21,296 nucleotides of DNA, from IMG/VR virus record IMGVR_UViG_3300029266_000927, positions 1 to 21,296 of that record; one strand, 5' to 3'. The position numbers were made by a program, and so were the translations under genes. Of the stretch, positions 11,111 through 21,296 are shown piece by piece (the stretch's first letter is position 1; each line of letters opens with the position of its first letter). The notes below the pieces were generated by a model. It did no database searches. It worked only from the letters and a program-made list of their open reading frames with translations, and was not told the origin of the DNA. Origin of the DNA: a virus.

Positions 11111-13348
11111 ATGGCTATAGATTCAACAAAACCAACTCTAAATACAGTAAATCCTGATTTATATTCTGTTTATGAACCTCAAGATAGTACAACTCGAATA
11201 CAATGGGGAGCTATTGGTAAGGCTGCACAAGGTGTTTTTGATGGAATAGAAAAAGATAAGAAAGATAAAAAAGATCAGTTAGATAAAGATTCTGATGCAA
11301 TTTTTAAAACTATTGCTGAAATAGAATTAAATGCAGATAAAACATTTGATGACGTTGTATTAGGCATGGCTACTAATGTAAAAAAAAATCTATTAATGCA
11401 ACAACAATTTGTTAGAGATGGTTTAATTACTCCAGACAAATTTAGAAGGTTGCAACAAAATGCTAAAAACCAAATGGCAGAATTTGGTATAATGGCTAAA
11501 AGTGCACAAGAATATACAGATGCCTCAGTAATAAGACAACAAGACAATACGGCTGGAGCTTCTGAAACTTATGTACAAGGATCTAATCAAGGATTTGGTA
11601 ATATGAATGGATTAGTAGAATATATTGATCCAGGTTCTAACATGGCCTATATGGTAAGGTTAGATAAAGATGGCAAAATGCCTTCTTATAAAGATAGTCC
11701 TGAATCTTTTCTTCCTGCAAGTTATGTAAACAATCGTAGTAAGTATCAATTTAACAGAGAAAATGCTGATATACAAACACAAACAGCAGCTTTTAAAGTA
11801 AATATGCAAAAATATATAACTTCATTTGCATCAACTAAGGAAGTTAATGGTATGGAAGGTGTTTATATGGTAGAAATTGAAGATGTTAGAAGAAACGTGC
11901 AAGGTTTTAAAGATATGAAAGAACAATTATTTCAATCTTCTTACAATTATGATGATGAAGTTTTATCTAATGCTGCAGCGCAATTTGATGGTAGATTTAA
12001 ATTTGCTCAATCTTTAAAAGAATTTAAAGAAACTAATCCAGGCGTAGACGAAAAGTATTTTATAAAAGTTGACGCTAATAGTTTTCCACCAAAGTTTACT
12101 CCTAATGATAGAGCCTTTGCAGAAAGCGTTGTTAGAGAAGCAAGTGATGATGCTTTTGATATGCAAATGGATGAAATGGTGAAAATAAAAGGAGGGATGA
12201 CATTCCCACAAGCTTCGGCTGCTACAACTTCTAATAACGCCGCAGTATCAAAAGATATAGGGTATTTAGAAAGAGCTAATCAAATAGCTACTGGAGATTT
12301 AAGTAGGTTCAGTGGTTCTTCGGCTGAATCTATTATTGATATGAATAGAGGTCAAACAGATCCAGCCTTAATGATTGATGCTATAACCAGACAGGGAGAT
12401 GTTATTAATATTACATATCAAAATGGTAGAGTTGAACCAGTACCAAGAAGAGATTCAAGTGGTAAGATACGCTCTACAACTGAAATTGCAAGAGAATTAT
12501 TTCAACTTATAAGTCCATCTAATGCTTCTTATGATGATACCTTAAAAGAATATAATGATGCAGGTAGAAGTTTAAATGTTAATGTACGTGATAAAACTGA
12601 TGCTGAAATTAAAAATCTTTTAGAAACTAATGCAGCTAAACTAATACTAAGTGATGCAAGGAGAGTTGAAACAGATACCAGGATAGCGGAAATTAATGCA
12701 GATACTCAACTGAACGATGCTCAAAAAACAGCCGCTATAGCTGATGTAGAGGAAAAAGCAAAAGATGTTGTTCCTACATCGACCGAAATAAACGATGCAA
12801 TTAGAGATAATAATATAGATCTTACAGCGGATGTAGCGCAAGCTAAGTTAGATGGATCAGTTGAATTACAAACTTATACTGGAGAAGATGCGGTAGGATA
12901 TGCATCAAGAGATCCTTTAAAAGTAAAAGCTTCTGGACAAGCTATTATTAAAAGTGCTGGTTCTACTGCTGCTGGATACGATATGACTGGTACTGAAGAG
13001 TTTAATTTAATAAATCCAGGAAGTACCACTTTACCAAGATATTTAACTTTTCCAAAGACGAACAGAAAAGACGCACTTGATGGACCTTTAGATAAAGTGT
13101 TAAAAGCTTATTTACCAAGTTCATTAAGAGGTAAAGTAAAAATTTCACTTGGTTTAGACTCACAAAAAATTGAAGTTACAGTTGGAGGTAAAAAAATTAC
13201 TGTATTTGATGTAACAGATAAAGAATTAGGTCCTTCTACTTCTTTTGTTGATATAGATAAATATGTAGCAATGATTGCATCACAAATAATAGGTGAACGA
13301 AACAATGAATTATCTAATCGAAGGGGAGGAAAACCTTCTGCATATTAA
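11111..13348 (+). CDS. Internal virion / ejection protein (T7 gp15-like role)
   Basis: 745 residues with no recognised enzymatic motif. The N-terminus is followed by a highly charged stretch KDKKDKKDQLDKD (about residues 49-61) and helices rich in Gln, Met and Lys (VKKNLLMQQQFVRDGLITPDKF). The centre mixes helices with short beta strands (GDVINITYQNGRVEPVPRR). Residues ~500-560 form a helical hairpin-like region (NLLETNAAKLILSDARRVETDTRIAEINADTQ). The C-terminus ends with strands KVKISLGLDSQKIEVTVGG and a basic tail (NRRGGKPSAY). There is no signal peptide. It lies between a gp14-like protein and a giant protein, with gaps of 9 and 6 bases, so it is probably a head-packaged protein ejected with the DNA. 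Its length happens to be close to that of T7 gp15 (747), but I see no sequence motif that proves homology. Confidence 0.6.
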   Translation: MAIDSTKPTLNTVNPDLYSVYEPQDSTTRIQWGAIGKAAQGVFDGIEKDKKDKKDQLDKDSDAIFKTIAEIELNADKTFDDVVLGMATNVKKNLLMQQQFVRDGLITPDKFRRLQQNAKNQMAEFGIMAKSAQEYTDASVIRQQDNTAGASETYVQGSNQGFGNMNGLVEYIDPGSNMAYMVRLDKDGKMPSYKDSPESFLPASYVNNRSKYQFNRENADIQTQTAAFKVNMQKYITSFASTKEVNGMEGVYMVEIEDVRRNVQGFKDMKEQLFQSSYNYDDEVLSNAAAQFDGRFKFAQSLKEFKETNPGVDEKYFIKVDANSFPPKFTPNDRAFAESVVREASDDAFDMQMDEMVKIKGGMTFPQASAATTSNNAAVSKDIGYLERANQIATGDLSRFSGSSAESIIDMNRGQTDPALMIDAITRQGDVINITYQNGRVEPVPRRDSSGKIRSTTEIARELFQLISPSNASYDDTLKEYNDAGRSLNVNVRDKTDAEIKNLLETNAAKLILSDARRVETDTRIAEINADTQLNDAQKTAAIADVEEKAKDVVPTSTEINDAIRDNNIDLTADVAQAKLDGSVELQTYTGEDAVGYASRDPLKVKASGQAIIKSAGSTAAGYDMTGTEEFNLINPGSTTLPRYLTFPKTNRKDALDGPLDKVLKAYLPSSLRGKVKISLGLDSQKIEVTVGGKKITVFDVTDKELGPSTSFVDIDKYVAMIASQIIGERNNELSNRRGGKPSAY

Positions 13349-13354
13349 TAAAAT

Positions 13355-16300
13355 ATGAATGAAGTTTTAAAAAAGTTATACGAAAACGGACTTACTGTTT
13401 TTGATTTGCCCGACTACGAGCAATTTCAAGTAGACATGCAAGATGAGGAAAAACTTTCTAAATTTAGAGAGAATATGTCACAACATTTTGACATACCTGA
13501 TCTTGAAACTTTGAAATTTGATATAGGTTTTGAGGCAAAAGATGATGTTGCACCTCAAATGAACGATGAGGGTTTAACTATACCAGTCCCAGAGGTAACA
13601 GATGAAGTGAATACAGAAAGAGTAGGACTAACAGTAGCACCTGGAGAGTCTTTTATAAGTGTAGATGAAGATATAACTAATGAGGATATAACACCTCAGG
13701 GAGATGTCGAAACCATTACAGAAAATGTTAAGTATGATGAAAAAGAAACAGGAGGAAACTTTGATATAACTACTGTAGGTGAAAGTGATACAATTACTTA
13801 TGATTCTACTGCAACACCTTTTGAAAGATCTTTAGCATTTATAAATAGAGATTTATTTACAAGAGATGAAGAACCTGTTGTCAATAGGTTAAACTATCAT
13901 TTTAATGATTATGGATTTGCTTTTGAAGAATCAGGAGTTTTTGATAATGTAACAGTAACAGCTTCTAACGGTGCTCAAGAGCAATTTGCAATAGACTCAT
14001 GGTTTACAGCTAACAATTCTCAAGAGGCAAGAGCTCTTAGAGATTTTCTAAGAAAAAATCAAGAATCCTCTAATATACTTGCTGCACAAACAGCTTATGA
14101 TTCTTCTAAAAAAAAGTATTTTACTGCACAAGCCAGACTTGATGATATTAAATTAATTCAACAGTCATCTCAAGATTTAGTAAAAAGAAATAAAGAATAT
14201 TTTGAAAGACAAGCTCAGCATGAACAGAATATGGAAATATTCACGAATGCACAACCTAATCAATTTGACGATCCAGAGTTTGCTGCTCAATATCAAAGAG
14301 AGTTAGAAGAAGGACGTTACTTAGCTTCTCAAGCTAAAAATCTTAATCAAGAGTTTACATCTTTTAGAGATAATGCAAAAAGCGTAGATTACGCTGTAGG
14401 TGCACATGTTGCAATGAAAGAAAATGATGGTACAGCTGTAGGTACGGCATTCTCTGGAATGTATAATCAATTTGTGGGATATTTTGATCAAGCACTTTCT
14501 ACAATAGGAGGTACAGGAATAGAAGCTTTTTATAATGTTGCTCAAGGTTATTGGGGTAATAATTATGGAATGTCTGAAGAAGAATATAGAACAGAATTTA
14601 TTAGAGTCTATGAAGGATATAAAAATGTAGAAGCTCCAGATTCTGCTAAAGAATCAGAAGAAGGTTTTATAGTTTGGATGAATAGTTTGAAAGATATTAA
14701 CCAGGATGATTCCCAAATCATCAAGGATATTATGGTCGAGAATGGTATGACAGAAAGTGATTTACGAGAGACTTCTACTTTAATGATGCCAGTTTCTGGA
14801 ATGAAACCAAAAGGTTTAATTGATGGGGATCATATCATTGTGGAAGATCCAGGCTTAAGAAGATTACCGTCAAATGAATATGATATTAGTAAAGGTGTTA
14901 GATATAATTGGGGTAATGATAATCTTATTCCTTTAGGTCAACCAAGTATAATGTATGATAAACCACAGGTTTGGAGTATAGAAGAAGACGATTGGGTGGA
15001 TGCACCAAACATATTTAATATAACTAACCTTTATGAGCAAATAGATGATTTAGTTGGAGATCAATTAGTTAAAAAAAGTAAAAAAGCTTTTAAAAGTAAA
15101 TCACGAGATTTCTTCACAGATTTAATTGGTGTTCAAAACGTAAGTGAAGAGAGAGTTGAAGCACAAATGAATGCTCCTGGAGCTTCAGGTATTATAATGA
15201 CTGGTTTATATGGTGGTGCAGAATCTTTACCTGCATTAATACCAATGATATATGGTGCAATTAAAAAGAAAAAGTTAATACTTCCAAAAGGTAAAAAAGC
15301 TAAAAAATTCATGAAAAGAATGGGTCAGTCTATAAAAGCTTGGGCAACTGATGGATATAGACAGACTACTTTAATTTCAATGGCATTAATGCATGCGGAT
15401 AAGCTTAATCAACGAATGGAGCAAAATCCTGAATTTGAATGGGTTACTGAAGAAGAGAAAAAAGCAATTGTTTTACCTTTAGCTATTACCTCTGGAATTT
15501 TAGAATCTTTAGGTTTTAGAAATTTACTTGCAGGTAAATCTGGAACTCAATTCCTTACTAACATAACAACACAAGCATTAGCTAAATTACCTAAAGGAGC
15601 AACTCCTCAAATGTTTAGAGTGGCGGTTGTTAATATAATGGACAATAGACTGACAAGAGGATTGAAGAATTCAGCTGTTGGTAGGTTTGGCAGTAGAGTA
15701 ATTCCTGCAGCTTTAGCAGAAGCAGAAACTGGTGCTTTACAAGAGATGTCTGATATAGGTGGAACAAATTTATACAATTCTTTTAAAGGTAAAGAAATGT
15801 TTAAAAACCCAGATTTGTGGTCTAAAGAATACTTTAATCAAGTAGGTCGTTCGGCTGCCGCTGAGGCTGTAGGAGGATTTGCATTGTCTACTGGACCTTC
15901 ACTTGTTGCTGCATTTACTGGAAAAAAAGGTTTAGCAGATACAGTTATTACCGATGAAATGGTTGCGATGTTTAACAACCTTAAAAACGATAAAACATAT
16001 GTTGAGGGTTATAAAACTAAATTAGAGCAGGAAGTTGCACAAGGATTAAAAAGTAAGGCAAAAGCTAAAGCTGAATTATTAGTTTTTAATGTTTTACGTT
16101 CAGCTGCAATTGATATAGATGTTGCAAGTGATTTATCTCCAACGCAATTAGCAAACGCTTTAAAATTAGTTTTTCAGAAAAAACAATTAACTAATGAACT
16201 TGAAGGACTTGATCCAGATTTAGGTGTTTACAAAGAAAAACAAATTCAGTTAGATAATATAAAACTTTTATTAAATGAAATAGGAAGTTCTGAAGCTACC

Positions 16301-19300
16301 TCACAAGCTGCATTATCTCAAGAACAAGAAGGAATAGTAGATTTTGTAACTGAAGAAGAAGCAGAAAGTAAATTAATAGAAGAGGGTGTGGAAAATCCCA
16401 CTCCAGAACAAATAAAAACTAAACAAGATGCCCTTCAAAAGCAAAGCACAGAGATCTTGGATGCACAAGAATCTTCCGAAGATAGCTCAGAAATGGGAGA
16501 GAATGTATCCAACGACAACACTACCGACAAAAGTGGGAAGACTATCAAAGGAATACAAACAGAAAACGAGGGGCAAACGGAAGAGGAAGTAGATTCTCAA
16601 GAACAAGAAGATGTAGAACAGTTTTTTGATGAAACTAACGAGAGTAATGAAATTGTTACTCCTTCTATAAGTAGAAACAAAGGTAAAACTCCTGTCAATC
16701 GTAATACTGGCTTAGTAACACAAATAATAAAAAACACTAAAAAAGTTGCAGAGTCAATAAAAAAAATATTTCCTAAATCAAGATTTGTTTTACATGACAA
16801 CTCTGAGTTATTTACAAAAGCAACAGGGAAAAAGGGTAAAGGATTTTTTGATACAGATTCAGGAACAATACACATAAATTTAGAAAAAGCTTCTAAATCT
16901 ACAGTTTATCATGAAGTTTCACACGCAATAGCTAATGAGTTAATTAAAAATGACGCGGCAGCTAATAAAGTTTTTGGAAGATTACTGAAAAGTATTGACA
17001 AAGTTTTACCAGCTCAAGCGGGTAATTTAAGAGAACGTATAAATAAATTTACTGAAAAATATGAAGCTAATGAAGTAAATGAGGAAGCTTTTTCTGAGTT
17101 GCTTGGTATTTTAGCAGGTGAGTATAAAACTTTAACTAAACCAAAGAAAAGTAAAGTAAAAGATTTAATAGCAAGATTTTTAAGAAAACTTGGAATTAAA
17201 GTTCCGCCTGTATTAGATACTCTAAATGAAACAGATGAAAATGTTATAGATTTTTTAAATACACTTGCTCAAAAAGTTAGAAGTGGTGAAGAAGTTACAG
17301 AAACAGATTTAAAAGTTATAACAGATTTAACCACTGAAATGAATGAGGTTGGAACTGCTCCAATTGGTGATCCTACAACAATAGTAAACGAAAGGAAAGG
17401 TAAAGAACAAAAAGTTAGTTTTGATGGCGTGTACGCAAATTCACTAATTACTCCAGCAAATGAATTAGATATAGATGCTTTAGTTGAAGACATAGCTAAT
17501 AAAAAACAAAAGGTTTGGTTCTGGATGGCTGATCAGTTAGGTATTGGAACAGTAGATGGAGTGAAAATAGATGGAGGTCCGAGTTATGCTTTCGTTCCAG
17601 AAAATGAACAAAAAAATATTATTTGGGCAAGTGGTATGAGTGAGTCTGCATTAGCAAGAAACTCAAAAGAAGCAGACTATATATTTATAGTAAGTGGTTC
17701 ACCAAAAGCAAGTAAGTTAGCAAACAAAAAAGTTTACGATTTATTTATTTCTAAGTTAGGAAGTTTCGAAGAATTTAAAACTAATGTGAGTAATTTTGCT
17801 AAACCACCTATTAAAGCAGTTAAAGATATACTGGCTAAGTATGACAGTTGGGATGCAATAAAAAATGCAAAATCTAACACAGTTAGAAAAACTTTCTTAA
17901 CTGGTTTAGTGGCTTCAGAACAAACACCAAACACTGATCTTCATAAATTATTAAAAGACTCGGATGCGTTTATAGATTTAGAATCTTTACGTGATGGATT
18001 TTATAAAGCCAATAATTTCAAAATGAATGATATAATGTTGGTTCTAAAACCAACTGGTGCTGGACAACAATCAAATCATTCGACATATACTAATGATATA
18101 TTAGGTGATGTAGTTGGAGTTCCTAATAAATTAATTAATGCATACTTTTTATTACCCGCAGCTATGAGGGATAAGTATGGAAAAGTGTTAAGTGGAGCTC
18201 AACAATCTCAAGTATTAGCTCCATATGGAAGTGGAATTAGAAATGTAGAAAGCCAAACGAAGAAGTCTAAGCCAGAAAAAAAGGAACGAAAAGGAAAAGA
18301 ACAGAAATCAGAACGTGACATTCAACAACAAACTGGAATGCCAGATAGTGGCTTTTATAGTGCTCAAGCTATGGTTTCTGACATACAACGCCAATGGCAA
18401 AGAATAAACCCAGGATACACAGCTGTAAGAGCTAAACAAGGTGCTTATGGTGGTGGTGGTGGTGTCTTTGTGCTTAGACCTAACGGCAGTAGAGTTAAAT
18501 TTAAATCAGGTAAACTACAAAAGTTAGATAGTGAAAATACTATTATTGACATTGTAATGAGAGGACGTGAAGCTGGGTTTAAGGATTCTGCTCTTAAATT
18601 TTATGCAAAAAAAAGAGGGTTTGCGGCAAAATTAATAAATGATGCCATGGCTTTAGAGGAGGATTTATTTACAAATTTTCCAAAAAGTTTTGCAAATATT
18701 GCTGGTGGTTTAAAAAAAGGAGTTTCTTTATTAAGAAAAGTTAATGATGAGTATATACGATTAACAAAAATTAATAATAAAAAAAGAAAAAACAAAGTTA
18801 GTAACGAACAGATTGTAAATGACACTATAGAATTTATGTACAACACTCCTGAATACAAGGAAGTTGGTACTGATGGTTCAAAAAAGACTTCACAACAAAT
18901 GGCTATGGAAGTTGATATATTAAATTATCTATCTCCAGATACATCTGCTAAAAATGGATTAAGAGTTTTAAACTTAAATAAAGATATACGTAATATAAAA
19001 TGGTCTAATAAGGAAGGTAAAAGAATACAAAGAAAACTTAGACAATATATTAGATCAGTTATTCCAAGAGGTATATATGGAAAAAGTGATATCATGAAAA
19101 TGATAGACAAAGTTAATGCTGTTGACGAATCTAATTTTGAAGTTATAGTTGAAGAAATTATTGATGAGGTTACAATAAGAACCAATAAATCTTTAAACGA
19201 TACTATATTAAATATTTTAAATAAAGATCAAACAACTAAACAGTCTGGAAGATTAAAAGGTAAATCCATCAGTAATGCGATAAGAAAACGAATACTTAGC

Positions 19301-21296
19301 ATACAAAAAAACATAATAGGATATGTTCCTGGTAAAAAGAATGAAAAAGGTAAAATCATATTAAAAAAAGATATTACAGCTGATGAAATAACAGCTCAAA
19401 ACCAAAAACTTTTAGATCGAATATCTGCATTAGAAACAGAAGATATCCAAGGCATATCAGTAAATAGAACACTGACTCCAAAAGAGATGGAAACAGTAGC
19501 AGATTTAGGTGTAGCTATTGCATATAATAATACTTTGTTGATGGATATGAAAAATGCTAAAAAAACAAATGGATATGAACAAGTATTGTTTGGATTAAAT
19601 CAATTACAAGATATAGGAGTTTCTTCTTTGCAGTTACAATTATTAAAAGATTCGAGTAAATACATGAATGATGCAATTACCGTTTTAAAAGATATGGGTG
19701 TAACTATCGATCCATTACAAGCATTAAAAGATTCTGGGCAAAAAAATATTAGTCAAGCTGATTTAATTAAAAAATTCTTAGAGTTAAAAAAGAAAGTAAA
19801 AATAGATGCATCAAGATCTAAGATAACAAAATTAAAGGTTCAACAAAAAATAGTGCAATCTGTTAAAGTTGTTACAAAAAAATTGTATGCTTATTTAGGA
19901 ACTGCTGAAGATTTAACTGGTTTAATGGATAGAATATCTTTATCTACAGGAGAATTATTTGGTGGCGTTACTCAAGACTTAGTTACAAAAGAAATTAGAA
20001 TGGCAACACGAACTTTTAAAGGTCGTATGTTAAGGCATGAACTTGCAGTAGCTACAAAAATGACAGAGCTATTTGGGAATAAATGGATGAAATCAAACCG
20101 TCAAAACAGTATTCAAGATGTTTCTATTATTATTAGTGAGTCTAAGGAAAATATACTTCAAAGAGAAAAAGCCAGAATTGAAAAAGATTCTAAGATGGAA
20201 TCTGGTGAAAAAGTACTTTTATTACAAGAAATAGATAAAGAAATAAACTCAAACACTAAAGTTCTTTCACAAAATGAATTATTATATTATAGAAATCAAG
20301 GGCTCGATCCATCTTTAGTGTCTTCTTTTGATTCAACTTTTGAGCCAACTCCTTTTGCTGGATCATTAGCTTATTTAAATACCAAAGCAGGATTCAGACC
20401 TGAATATAGTGAGCGTATTAAAGAAGAAATAACAACTAAATTAGATTCTAAATTAATTGATTTAGGAGATTGGATGGTGAATGATTTTTATCCTTCTCAA
20501 TATGAACATTACAATAAAACATATCAAAAAATATATAGAACTGATATGCCATGGAATAAATACTATGCAGGTAGATTATATAGAGATGGTGAACAAATAG
20601 GTGGAATAGATTTATTAGATTCTAAAGGAAATGATACATGGATGAATTCAGTTTCTACGGCAAGTACAAAGTACAGACAAGAAAGTAAGGCATCTATTAT
20701 GCAAACTAATGCTGTAGATGCTCTATTAAATTATACTCGTGATATGGAGTATTTTGCAGCTTACGCACTTCCCATTAGAAATATAAATAAAATATTTACA
20801 GACAGTGCCGTTAGAGAAACTATTGCACAAAGATTTGGTGAACCAATTAATAAGTATATAAACAATGCAATACAAAAAGTAGCAAATAAAGGAGTTAACA
20901 ATGAAGGTTCTGCTGGTTTAATTAATTTCTTTAACAATTCATTTTTATTATCCAGGTTAGGATTTAATCCTACATTGATTTTAAAACAAATGACATCTGC
21001 CGTTACTTATGGTAATGAAATAGGTTATGATCAATGGTTAAAATATTCAGCTCAAACAGGAATAAAAGGAATATCTAATGATTTAAAAGAAATAATGGCA
21101 AATTCTGTTGTTCTTCAAGATAGATATGGACAACCAATTACAAGAGTACTTGAATCATACCAAGATAGATCTTTTCAGAAACTAAACGGAGAAGATAACG
21201 CTATTAATAAACTTTTCAATAAAGAAAATCAAAACAAATTAGTAAATCTTTTAATGTCATTTACAATGGCAGGAGATAAAGGTGCTCCTTCCCTCC
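13355..21296 (+). CDS. Giant multidomain ejection/polyvalent protein with a zincin-type metallopeptidase domain (3' end outside window)
   Basis: Open for at least 2647 codons, from the ATG six bases after the previous stop to the window end. Seen in order: an acidic N-terminus (residues ~1-190); Gln/Lys-rich helices (~230-350); an Ala/Gly-rich part with hydrophobic stretches near 607-636, 703-728 and 831-857, and AEAETGALQEMSD at 788-800; an acidic low-complexity linker (~1014-1090); a metallopeptidase domain with HEVSH at 1186-1190 and a possible third ligand in NEEAFSEL (1242-1249); an unknown domain with DGGPSY at 1406-1411; a Lys/Glu/Gln linker (~1628-1664); helical segments with RGREAGFKDSALKFYAKKRG (1736-1755) and LRQYIRSVIPRGIYGKSD (1895-1912); and a C-terminal helical region (2465-2570: EYFAAYALPIRNINKIF, then LGFNPTLILKQMTSA) of the type found in phage large polyvalent proteins. 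Such proteins are packed in the head and ejected with DNA (family knowledge). Place as third gene of the ejection block agrees with a T7 gp16-like role; no transglycosylase or RNA-polymerase motif is visible. Confidence 0.72.
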   Translation, partial: MNEVLKKLYENGLTVFDLPDYEQFQVDMQDEEKLSKFRENMSQHFDIPDLETLKFDIGFEAKDDVAPQMNDEGLTIPVPEVTDEVNTERVGLTVAPGESFISVDEDITNEDITPQGDVETITENVKYDEKETGGNFDITTVGESDTITYDSTATPFERSLAFINRDLFTRDEEPVVNRLNYHFNDYGFAFEESGVFDNVTVTASNGAQEQFAIDSWFTANNSQEARALRDFLRKNQESSNILAAQTAYDSSKKKYFTAQARLDDIKLIQQSSQDLVKRNKEYFERQAQHEQNMEIFTNAQPNQFDDPEFAAQYQRELEEGRYLASQAKNLNQEFTSFRDNAKSVDYAVGAHVAMKENDGTAVGTAFSGMYNQFVGYFDQALSTIGGTGIEAFYNVAQGYWGNNYGMSEEEYRTEFIRVYEGYKNVEAPDSAKESEEGFIVWMNSLKDINQDDSQIIKDIMVENGMTESDLRETSTLMMPVSGMKPKGLIDGDHIIVEDPGLRRLPSNEYDISKGVRYNWGNDNLIPLGQPSIMYDKPQVWSIEEDDWVDAPNIFNITNLYEQIDDLVGDQLVKKSKKAFKSKSRDFFTDLIGVQNVSEERVEAQMNAPGASGIIMTGLYGGAESLPALIPMIYGAIKKKKLILPKGKKAKKFMKRMGQSIKAWATDGYRQTTLISMALMHADKLNQRMEQNPEFEWVTEEEKKAIVLPLAITSGILESLGFRNLLAGKSGTQFLTNITTQALAKLPKGATPQMFRVAVVNIMDNRLTRGLKNSAVGRFGSRVIPAALAEAETGALQEMSDIGGTNLYNSFKGKEMFKNPDLWSKEYFNQVGRSAAAEAVGGFALSTGPSLVAAFTGKKGLADTVITDEMVAMFNNLKNDKTYVEGYKTKLEQEVAQGLKSKAKAKAELLVFNVLRSAAIDIDVASDLSPTQLANALKLVFQKKQLTNELEGLDPDLGVYKEKQIQLDNIKLLLNEIGSSEATSQAALSQEQEGIVDFVTEEEAESKLIEEGVENPTPEQIKTKQDALQKQSTEILDAQESSEDSSEMGENVSNDNTTDKSGKTIKGIQTENEGQTEEEVDSQEQEDVEQFFDETNESNEIVTPSISRNKGKTPVNRNTGLVTQIIKNTKKVAESIKKIFPKSRFVLHDNSELFTKATGKKGKGFFDTDSGTIHINLEKASKSTVYHEVSHAIANELIKNDAAANKVFGRLLKSIDKVLPAQAGNLRERINKFTEKYEANEVNEEAFSELLGILAGEYKTLTKPKKSKVKDLIARFLRKLGIKVPPVLDTLNETDENVIDFLNTLAQKVRSGEEVTETDLKVITDLTTEMNEVGTAPIGDPTTIVNERKGKEQKVSFDGVYANSLITPANELDIDALVEDIANKKQKVWFWMADQLGIGTVDGVKIDGGPSYAFVPENEQKNIIWASGMSESALARNSKEADYIFIVSGSPKASKLANKKVYDLFISKLGSFEEFKTNVSNFAKPPIKAVKDILAKYDSWDAIKNAKSNTVRKTFLTGLVASEQTPNTDLHKLLKDSDAFIDLESLRDGFYKANNFKMNDIMLVLKPTGAGQQSNHSTYTNDILGDVVGVPNKLINAYFLLPAAMRDKYGKVLSGAQQSQVLAPYGSGIRNVESQTKKSKPEKKERKGKEQKSERDIQQQTGMPDSGFYSAQAMVSDIQRQWQRINPGYTAVRAKQGAYGGGGGVFVLRPNGSRVKFKSGKLQKLDSENTIIDIVMRGREAGFKDSALKFYAKKRGFAAKLINDAMALEEDLFTNFPKSFANIAGGLKKGVSLLRKVNDEYIRLTKINNKKRKNKVSNEQIVNDTIEFMYNTPEYKEVGTDGSKKTSQQMAMEVDILNYLSPDTSAKNGLRVLNLNKDIRNIKWSNKEGKRIQRKLRQYIRSVIPRGIYGKSDIMKMIDKVNAVDESNFEVIVEEIIDEVTIRTNKSLNDTILNILNKDQTTKQSGRLKGKSISNAIRKRILSIQKNIIGYVPGKKNEKGKIILKKDITADEITAQNQKLLDRISALETEDIQGISVNRTLTPKEMETVADLGVAIAYNNTLLMDMKNAKKTNGYEQVLFGLNQLQDIGVSSLQLQLLKDSSKYMNDAITVLKDMGVTIDPLQALKDSGQKNISQADLIKKFLELKKKVKIDASRSKITKLKVQQKIVQSVKVVTKKLYAYLGTAEDLTGLMDRISLSTGELFGGVTQDLVTKEIRMATRTFKGRMLRHELAVATKMTELFGNKWMKSNRQNSIQDVSIIISESKENILQREKARIEKDSKMESGEKVLLLQEIDKEINSNTKVLSQNELLYYRNQGLDPSLVSSFDSTFEPTPFAGSLAYLNTKAGFRPEYSERIKEEITTKLDSKLIDLGDWMVNDFYPSQYEHYNKTYQKIYRTDMPWNKYYAGRLYRDGEQIGGIDLLDSKGNDTWMNSVSTASTKYRQESKASIMQTNAVDALLNYTRDMEYFAAYALPIRNINKIFTDSAVRETIAQRFGEPINKYINNAIQKVANKGVNNEGSAGLINFFNNSFLLSRLGFNPTLILKQMTSAVTYGNEIGYDQWLKYSAQTGIKGISNDLKEIMANSVVLQDRYGQPITRVLESYQDRSFQKLNGEDNAINKLFNKENQNKLVNLLMSFTMAGDKGAPSL
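18449..18463 (+). repeat. (GGT)5 microsatellite in the giant gene
   Basis: Five tandem GGT codons encode Gly1699-Gly1703 (AYGGGGGVF), a very G-rich spot in an A/T-rich gene. It lies just after the second linker. Repeat number changes would add or remove glycines without breaking the frame. Confidence 0.7.

Follow-up and report, generated by a model that had tools for sequence, protein, structure and literature searches.

A giant polyvalent-type protein of Bacteroidota podoviruses pairs a predicted zincin metallopeptidase with an exchangeable payload slot

Large polyvalent proteins were defined as a class in 2017, with the zincin as their commonest domain, and both co-delivery with DNA and self-processing have been proposed for them (Iyer et al., PMC5512222). 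The same study assigned region 2130-2448 of the N4 virion RNA polymerase (vRNAP) as a peptidase with similarity to lethal factor (Iyer et al. 2017, PMC5512222). Here, we describe a giant protein of this type, encoded in a window—the whole stretch of DNA analyzed, 21,296 b in length—that corresponds to a complete virus record. Like the polyvalent proteins (PMC5512222), the giant is a multidomain protein encoded among virion genes, with the shared zincin and interchangeable effector modules, and its relatives bear ART-PolyVal and LPD23. The traits of the class can also be recognized one by one: disparate domains occur in a single polypeptide, with the zincin present in the giant and ART-PolyVal, GNAT and methyltransferase modules carried by its relatives, and the gene lies among genes for virion or DNA-transfer functions. 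Unlike the polyvalent proteins described in 2017 (PMC5512222), however, the giant family contains regions—X, X2, N1, M and C—that match no described Pfam LPD family, and the main text of that paper does not mention EVE, ASCH, YTH, PUA or Cellulophaga. The family of giants is new, while the giant polyvalent class was already known; since zincin-bearing polyvalent proteins had been described (PMC5512222), the initial annotation was too strong in proposing an undescribed system. The novelty lies in the X and X2 families, in a family-wide layout by which Bacteroidota podoviruses combine one frame, one protease and a swappable slot, and in a possible EVE/YTH-like payload.

The giant open reading frame starts with an ATG and runs for 2,647 codons, free of stops, up to the window end (Table 1). 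Two relatives on viral contigs, L002 and L003, share 63-64% identity with the giant protein across almost its full length, which argues that the frame is a real gene—one uninterrupted frame still open at the window end, as the initial annotation had described it. The complete one of these two relatives has 2,946 aa and its own stop, and another close relative, L014, spans 2,987 aa between stops; approximately 300 C-terminal residues are therefore absent from the window's giant. Searches with the giant protein returned no above-threshold match in Pfam, PHROG, NCBIfam, PADLOC or PDB sequences. Residues 1724-2647 are kept in ~34 relatives and matched no Pfam family, so the polyvalent-type C-terminus suggested earlier holds as a conserved region, but not as a Pfam LPD match. 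The membrane-type hydrophobic segments, also part of the initial annotation, proved weak: the highest 19-residue Kyte-Doolittle mean was 1.43 (residues 702-725) and none reached 1.5, indicating that the giant has no classical transmembrane helix.

Table 1. Position of the giant gene, its regions and its upstream neighbors in the window
Feature	Position	Strand	Remarks
Protein with crassvirus muzzle C-terminal domain PF25729	9207..10031	+	Pfam, E 2e-9, above cut-off
gp14-like internal virion protein, 211 aa	10466..11101	+	Homologue of MS/MS-annotated phi18:3 gp120
gp15-like gene, 745 aa	11111..13348	+	Immediately upstream of the giant gene in 71/79 related loci
Giant polyvalent-type protein, probable virion/ejection protein	13355..21295	+	2647 aa seen, open at window end; ~2950-2990 aa expected
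Conserved region N1, residues 154-413	13814..14593	+	In 43/89 relatives and Manatee Spring phage
Conserved region M, residues 684-983, moderately hydrophobic	15404..16303	+	In 54/89 relatives
Linker ahead of the predicted peptidase, residues 990-1118, polar/acidic (71% of residues charged or polar)	16322..16708	+	Composition
Zincin-like metallopeptidase domain Z (predicted), residues 1118-1350	16706..17404	+	Alignment, model, structure matches
HEVSH motif, residues 1186-1190	16910..16924	+	Sequence, alignment
Invariant residues Y1236 (predicted catalytic Tyr) and E1243-E1244 (predicted third zinc ligand)	17060..17086	+	Alignment
Domain X (new family), residues 1363-1643: PUA-like (EVE/YTH/ASCH) fold predicted, with helical insertion	17441..18283	+	
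Conserved C-terminal regions C0-C3, residues 1724-2647, without known family	18524..21295	+	

The upstream genes of the window match virion proteins of Bacteroidota podoviruses. A 1,582-aa upstream protein shares 38% identity with the Manatee Spring phage MW202828, and it also matches Cellulophaga phi18:3 (Pachyviridae), phi38:1 (Pervagoviridae) and the Flavobacterium elemo phages. The gp14-like protein aligned at E 6e-30 with phi18:3 gp120, the annotation of which derives from MS/MS of virions, and the PF25729 match indicates that this podovirus has a crassvirus tail-tip domain in common. Elemovirus, Pervagoviridae and Pachyviridae are relatives of this virus, a podovirus of Bacteroidota. The location of the giant gene after gp14- and gp15-like genes, pointed out in the initial annotation, recurs in the related loci (Table 1), and of 66 loci, 64 had the longest ORF within the 2.5 kb downstream of the giant gene on the opposite strand. 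Taken together, the gp15-like gene upstream and the opposite-strand ORFs downstream indicate that the giant gene normally closes the structural operon. In this respect the giant resembles phi18:3 gp123 and phi38:1 gp101 of the Cellulophaga podoviruses, likewise the last structural-operon genes after gp14- and gp15-like genes; unlike the giant, these two proteins are shorter, and they have no detectable similarity to it. The annotation of phi18:3 gp123, which occupies the giant's gene position, comes from MS/MS. Since the sequence of this protein shows no detectable similarity to the window's giant, we infer the presence of the latter in the virion from its position. The elemo records use the label 'structural protein', the origin of which could not be traced. 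Judging from gene position, this virus of Bacteroidota probably packs the giant protein in its particle and sends it into the cell with the DNA.

The order of gp14-like gene, gp15-like gene and giant is also that of a T7 gp16-type internal core protein, and it could mean that the giant is mainly a structural ejection-channel protein, the zincin of which opens the envelope locally or trims virion proteins during assembly. We regard this interpretation as quite improbable. It draws on the gene order and on a similarity of the gp14-like protein to T7_gp14 that is weak (E 0.013, below cut-off), whereas the hydropathy profile shows no transmembrane helix, the closest zincin folds (see below) are protein endopeptidases rather than peptidoglycan ones, and the ADP-ribosyltransferase and acetyltransferase modules of the relatives make sense in the cell interior. 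As for a likeness to T7 gp16 in sequence or in its lytic transglycosylase, the giant had no Pfam or PHROG match.

When viral contigs were scanned with profiles, the zincin was detected at no fewer than 188 loci and domain X at 43. Removal of near-duplicates left 89 giant proteins, most of them of 1.9-4.0 kaa, with the shortest ones cut by contig ends. The zincin is present in 89/89 of these proteins, a count that partly results from how the loci were gathered, and domain X in 38/89. Around these modules, the frame regions N1 and M (Table 1) and C0-C4 (in 32-59 giants) recur. X is placed behind the zincin in every X-bearing giant except L007, in which the order is reversed (12674-14500, X then zincin), indicating that zincin and X are two separate modules. 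Several further variations were observed across the family. Seven giants (L077, L085, L070, L098, L118, L120 and L128) have a further stretch resembling a zincin, with HE[VIL]QH, and in L077 and L120—the two scanned with Pfam—LPD23 is matched at this stretch or just ahead of it. DUF3293, an extra unexplained module, occurs in giants including L048 and L022, ahead of the zincin in seven of eight cases. In L028 (6812-14734), the giant ORF stops within C3, unlike in its relatives, possibly through truncation or a frameshift.

The HEVSH zinc-peptidase motif, likewise noted at the outset, occurs once in the giant, against a composition-based chance expectation of 0.006, and falls within a predicted zincin fold. 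Among 84 aligned sequences, T1183, H1186, E1187, H1190, Y1236, E1243 and E1244 are invariant (84/84), H1147 and E1248 are nearly so, and the Y-to-E spacing is 7 residues in 64. Many of these loci were fetched by a pattern containing HExxH; HExxH is also kept in loci retrieved through the X pattern, and the downstream Tyr and Glu lie outside the fetch pattern. Judged by the alignment, HExxH and the following Glu, found in 84/84, constitute a clan MA(E)-like signature, with H1186, H1190 and either E1243 or E1244 as the predicted zinc ligands, E1187 as the predicted base and Y1236 as the predicted catalytic Tyr. The Tyr-Glu spacing of lethal factor and PPEP-like zincins equals the 7 residues of these 64 sequences.

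From a structure perspective, an AlphaFold2 model of residues 1107-1650 had a mean pLDDT of 82, lower in the helices past the active site, and displayed strands ahead of the HExxH helix and helices behind it. VIA-align matched the modeled zincin to anthrax lethal factor (Z 6.9, 89 aligned, 3.7 Å), residues 2126-2367 of the N4 virion RNA polymerase (Z 5.6, 178 aligned, 5.0 Å), PPEP-1 (Z 5.2, 82 aligned, 3.1 Å) and collagenase H (Z 5.2)—moderate Z-scores throughout, as values below 8 can reflect a common arrangement. Set against these moderate scores, the N4 stretch recovered is the very region assigned as a peptidase by Iyer et al. A structural likeness to zincins had been named beforehand as one of the points on which the initial proposal would stand or fall, and the lethal factor, N4 and PPEP-1 matches provide it. 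In a Foldseek search against the PDB, the two-domain (zincin and X) model gave nothing below E 0.3, and single family members matched Tox-MPTase2, Tox-MPTase4, DUF6782 and DUF5700 weakly (by Pfam E-values). The structure matches and the invariant catalytic residues together support the prediction that residues 1118-1350 form a zincin, which would act as a protease. The likeness to lethal factor and PPEP covers predicted fold, HExxH and the downstream Tyr and Glu; however, no sequence similarity to these proteins was found for the zincin of the giant, which has no toxin context and is presumably a phage cargo acting in bacteria. The N4 virion RNA polymerase (gp50) is comparable as a giant injected virion protein with a zincin-like domain, injection of the window's giant being presumed. 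Unlike in N4 gp50, however, no RNA polymerase domain was recognized in the giant, and its peptidase is central rather than C-terminal. The DxDGD motif is absent from the window's giant, and the T7-like RNA_pol family profile, silent even in control genomes, is uninformative on a virion RNA polymerase.

With moderate confidence, we favor as the overall best explanation a polyvalent-type ejection protein with a self-cutting zincin and an interchangeable payload, X. It builds on several observations: the gene and its family, their constant position in the genome, the conservation of the zincin site, the predicted folds and the exchange of payloads. The N1, M and C-terminal regions would serve as a carrier, packed alongside the gp14- and gp15-like proteins, and this carrier would exit the virion with the DNA in a partly unfolded form, as crassvirus cargo proteins are thought to do (PMC10172136). 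Once delivered, the zincin would cut its own polypeptide at polar linkers, allowing the domains behind it to act separately; X would be one of several exchangeable payloads in the slot and, by its fold, would most likely act on nucleic acid. No cleavage site was identified in the giant protein. A somewhat unlikely alternative is that the zincin is an effector acting on a host protein (e.g., a defense or regulatory one) rather than on its own chain, the giant staying whole like the N4 virion RNA polymerase. That polymerase is packaged uncut despite such a domain (PMC5512222), and the nearest solved folds are proteases cutting other proteins, both of which fit a host target. The zincin, however, is the sole module found in all 89 giants, ahead of a varied slot, and this constancy fits a shared processing role, as does the polar linker ahead of the zincin.

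Payloads are exchanged among relatives in the slot behind the zincin. In the 89 giants, the X of 38 proteins gives way to X2 in 22, never both in one protein, and other relatives carry ART-PolyVal, DUF7178, LPD23, GNAT or methyltransferase modules at this site. The slot of L047 (giant residues ~1700-1801) matches the gene 82 protein of Mycobacterium phage L5 (PF25735, E 5e-8, above cut-off). An elemo phage, a cultured phage of Flavobacterium, likewise has X2 directly behind its zincin (L001:4994-6037). When X was compared with X2 by hhalign, the scores were 30.5 and 35.0; the highest of 100 column-shuffled controls was 22.5, although one unrelated comparison gave 27.4. The predicted structure of X matches the X2-carrying elemo giant protein at E 1.3e-6. 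X and X2 may therefore be distant sisters.

X itself is a 280-residue domain with 37 positions that do not vary across 37 sequences, including WFW (1388-1390), D1393-Q1394, GPS (1408-1410), SGS (1447-1449), R1511-K1512 and HSTY (1575-1578). It had no sequence match in Pfam, PHROG, NCBIfam or PDB, and no copies were found in bacterial genomes or in annotated phages. Residues 1363-1643 thus represent at least one truly unrecognized domain. An X-only model reached a pLDDT of 92 and a pTM of 0.88, and 67 of 994 chains reached Z 5 against it in VIA-align. The best 50 entries were all YTH, EVE or ASCH proteins or their close kin, from 4u8t at the top (127 aligned, 3.6 Å, with a Z of 6.7, below the Z of 8 that would convince by itself) to a 5hmC-specific restriction enzyme in last place (Z 4.4), and the alignments span most of the matched domains. 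The PUA-like group surfaced only with the X-only model in VIA-align. Since no unrelated entries occurred among the 50 listed matches, a PUA-like fold is likely for X, with Z values not decisive by themselves and sequence methods giving no confirmation. As regards the latter, an assignment of X to EVE by sequence was set aside, with no hhalign match against 68 EVE proteins and no hit of the Pfam EVE model in 27 X-bearing records, and the ASCH and YTH families gave no match to X in Pfam scans of members. An assignment to MuF-C/PBECR was likewise dropped: it stemmed from one viral structure match with the two-domain model and vanished in the X-only search. Compared with the EVE/YTH/ASCH (PUA-like) readers, X thus shares the predicted fold, but differs in lacking sequence similarity, in its large helical insertion between strands and in its fusion to a phage zincin.

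EVE, YTH and their PUA-like kin are binders of modified bases that are often met in conflicts between phages and hosts (PMC7641849). By this analogy, the predicted fold of X suggests nucleic-acid binding, possibly of a modified base. A link between X and DNA base methylation was considered and rejected, as 43 records held a single Dam gene and no N6/N4 methylase. It is also possible, if on balance doubtful, that X is an enzyme of another kind, with a predicted fold that only resembles a PUA-like barrel—a view compatible with the favored explanation for the rest of the protein. The 37 invariant residues, many of them polar, do look enzyme-like, and Z stays at or below 6.7 without sequence support for a PUA-like assignment; however, one superfamily and no unrelated protein among the 50 listed matches, together with alignments covering the bulk of the target domains, speak for a PUA-like fold. 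A more far-reaching scenario can also be drawn, which we consider unlikely as it stands: a widespread lineage of Bacteroidota phages would inject a protease joined in one polypeptide to a modified-base reader of PUA-like fold (X, perhaps X2), and the freed reader would mark or shield modified host or phage nucleic acid, e.g., against modification-dependent defenses, in the first minutes of infection.

These results pinpoint two new domain families, X and X2, directly behind the protease. If X does read modified bases, it would represent an injected reader of nucleic-acid modifications, of which we found no description in the literature consulted. More broadly, polyvalent cargo proteins emerge as standard equipment across a large and for the most part uncultured group of Bacteroidota podoviruses. 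Finally, the zincin-X2 version is present in cultured Flavobacterium elemo phages, and this makes the packaging, processing and target of these proteins open to direct testing.
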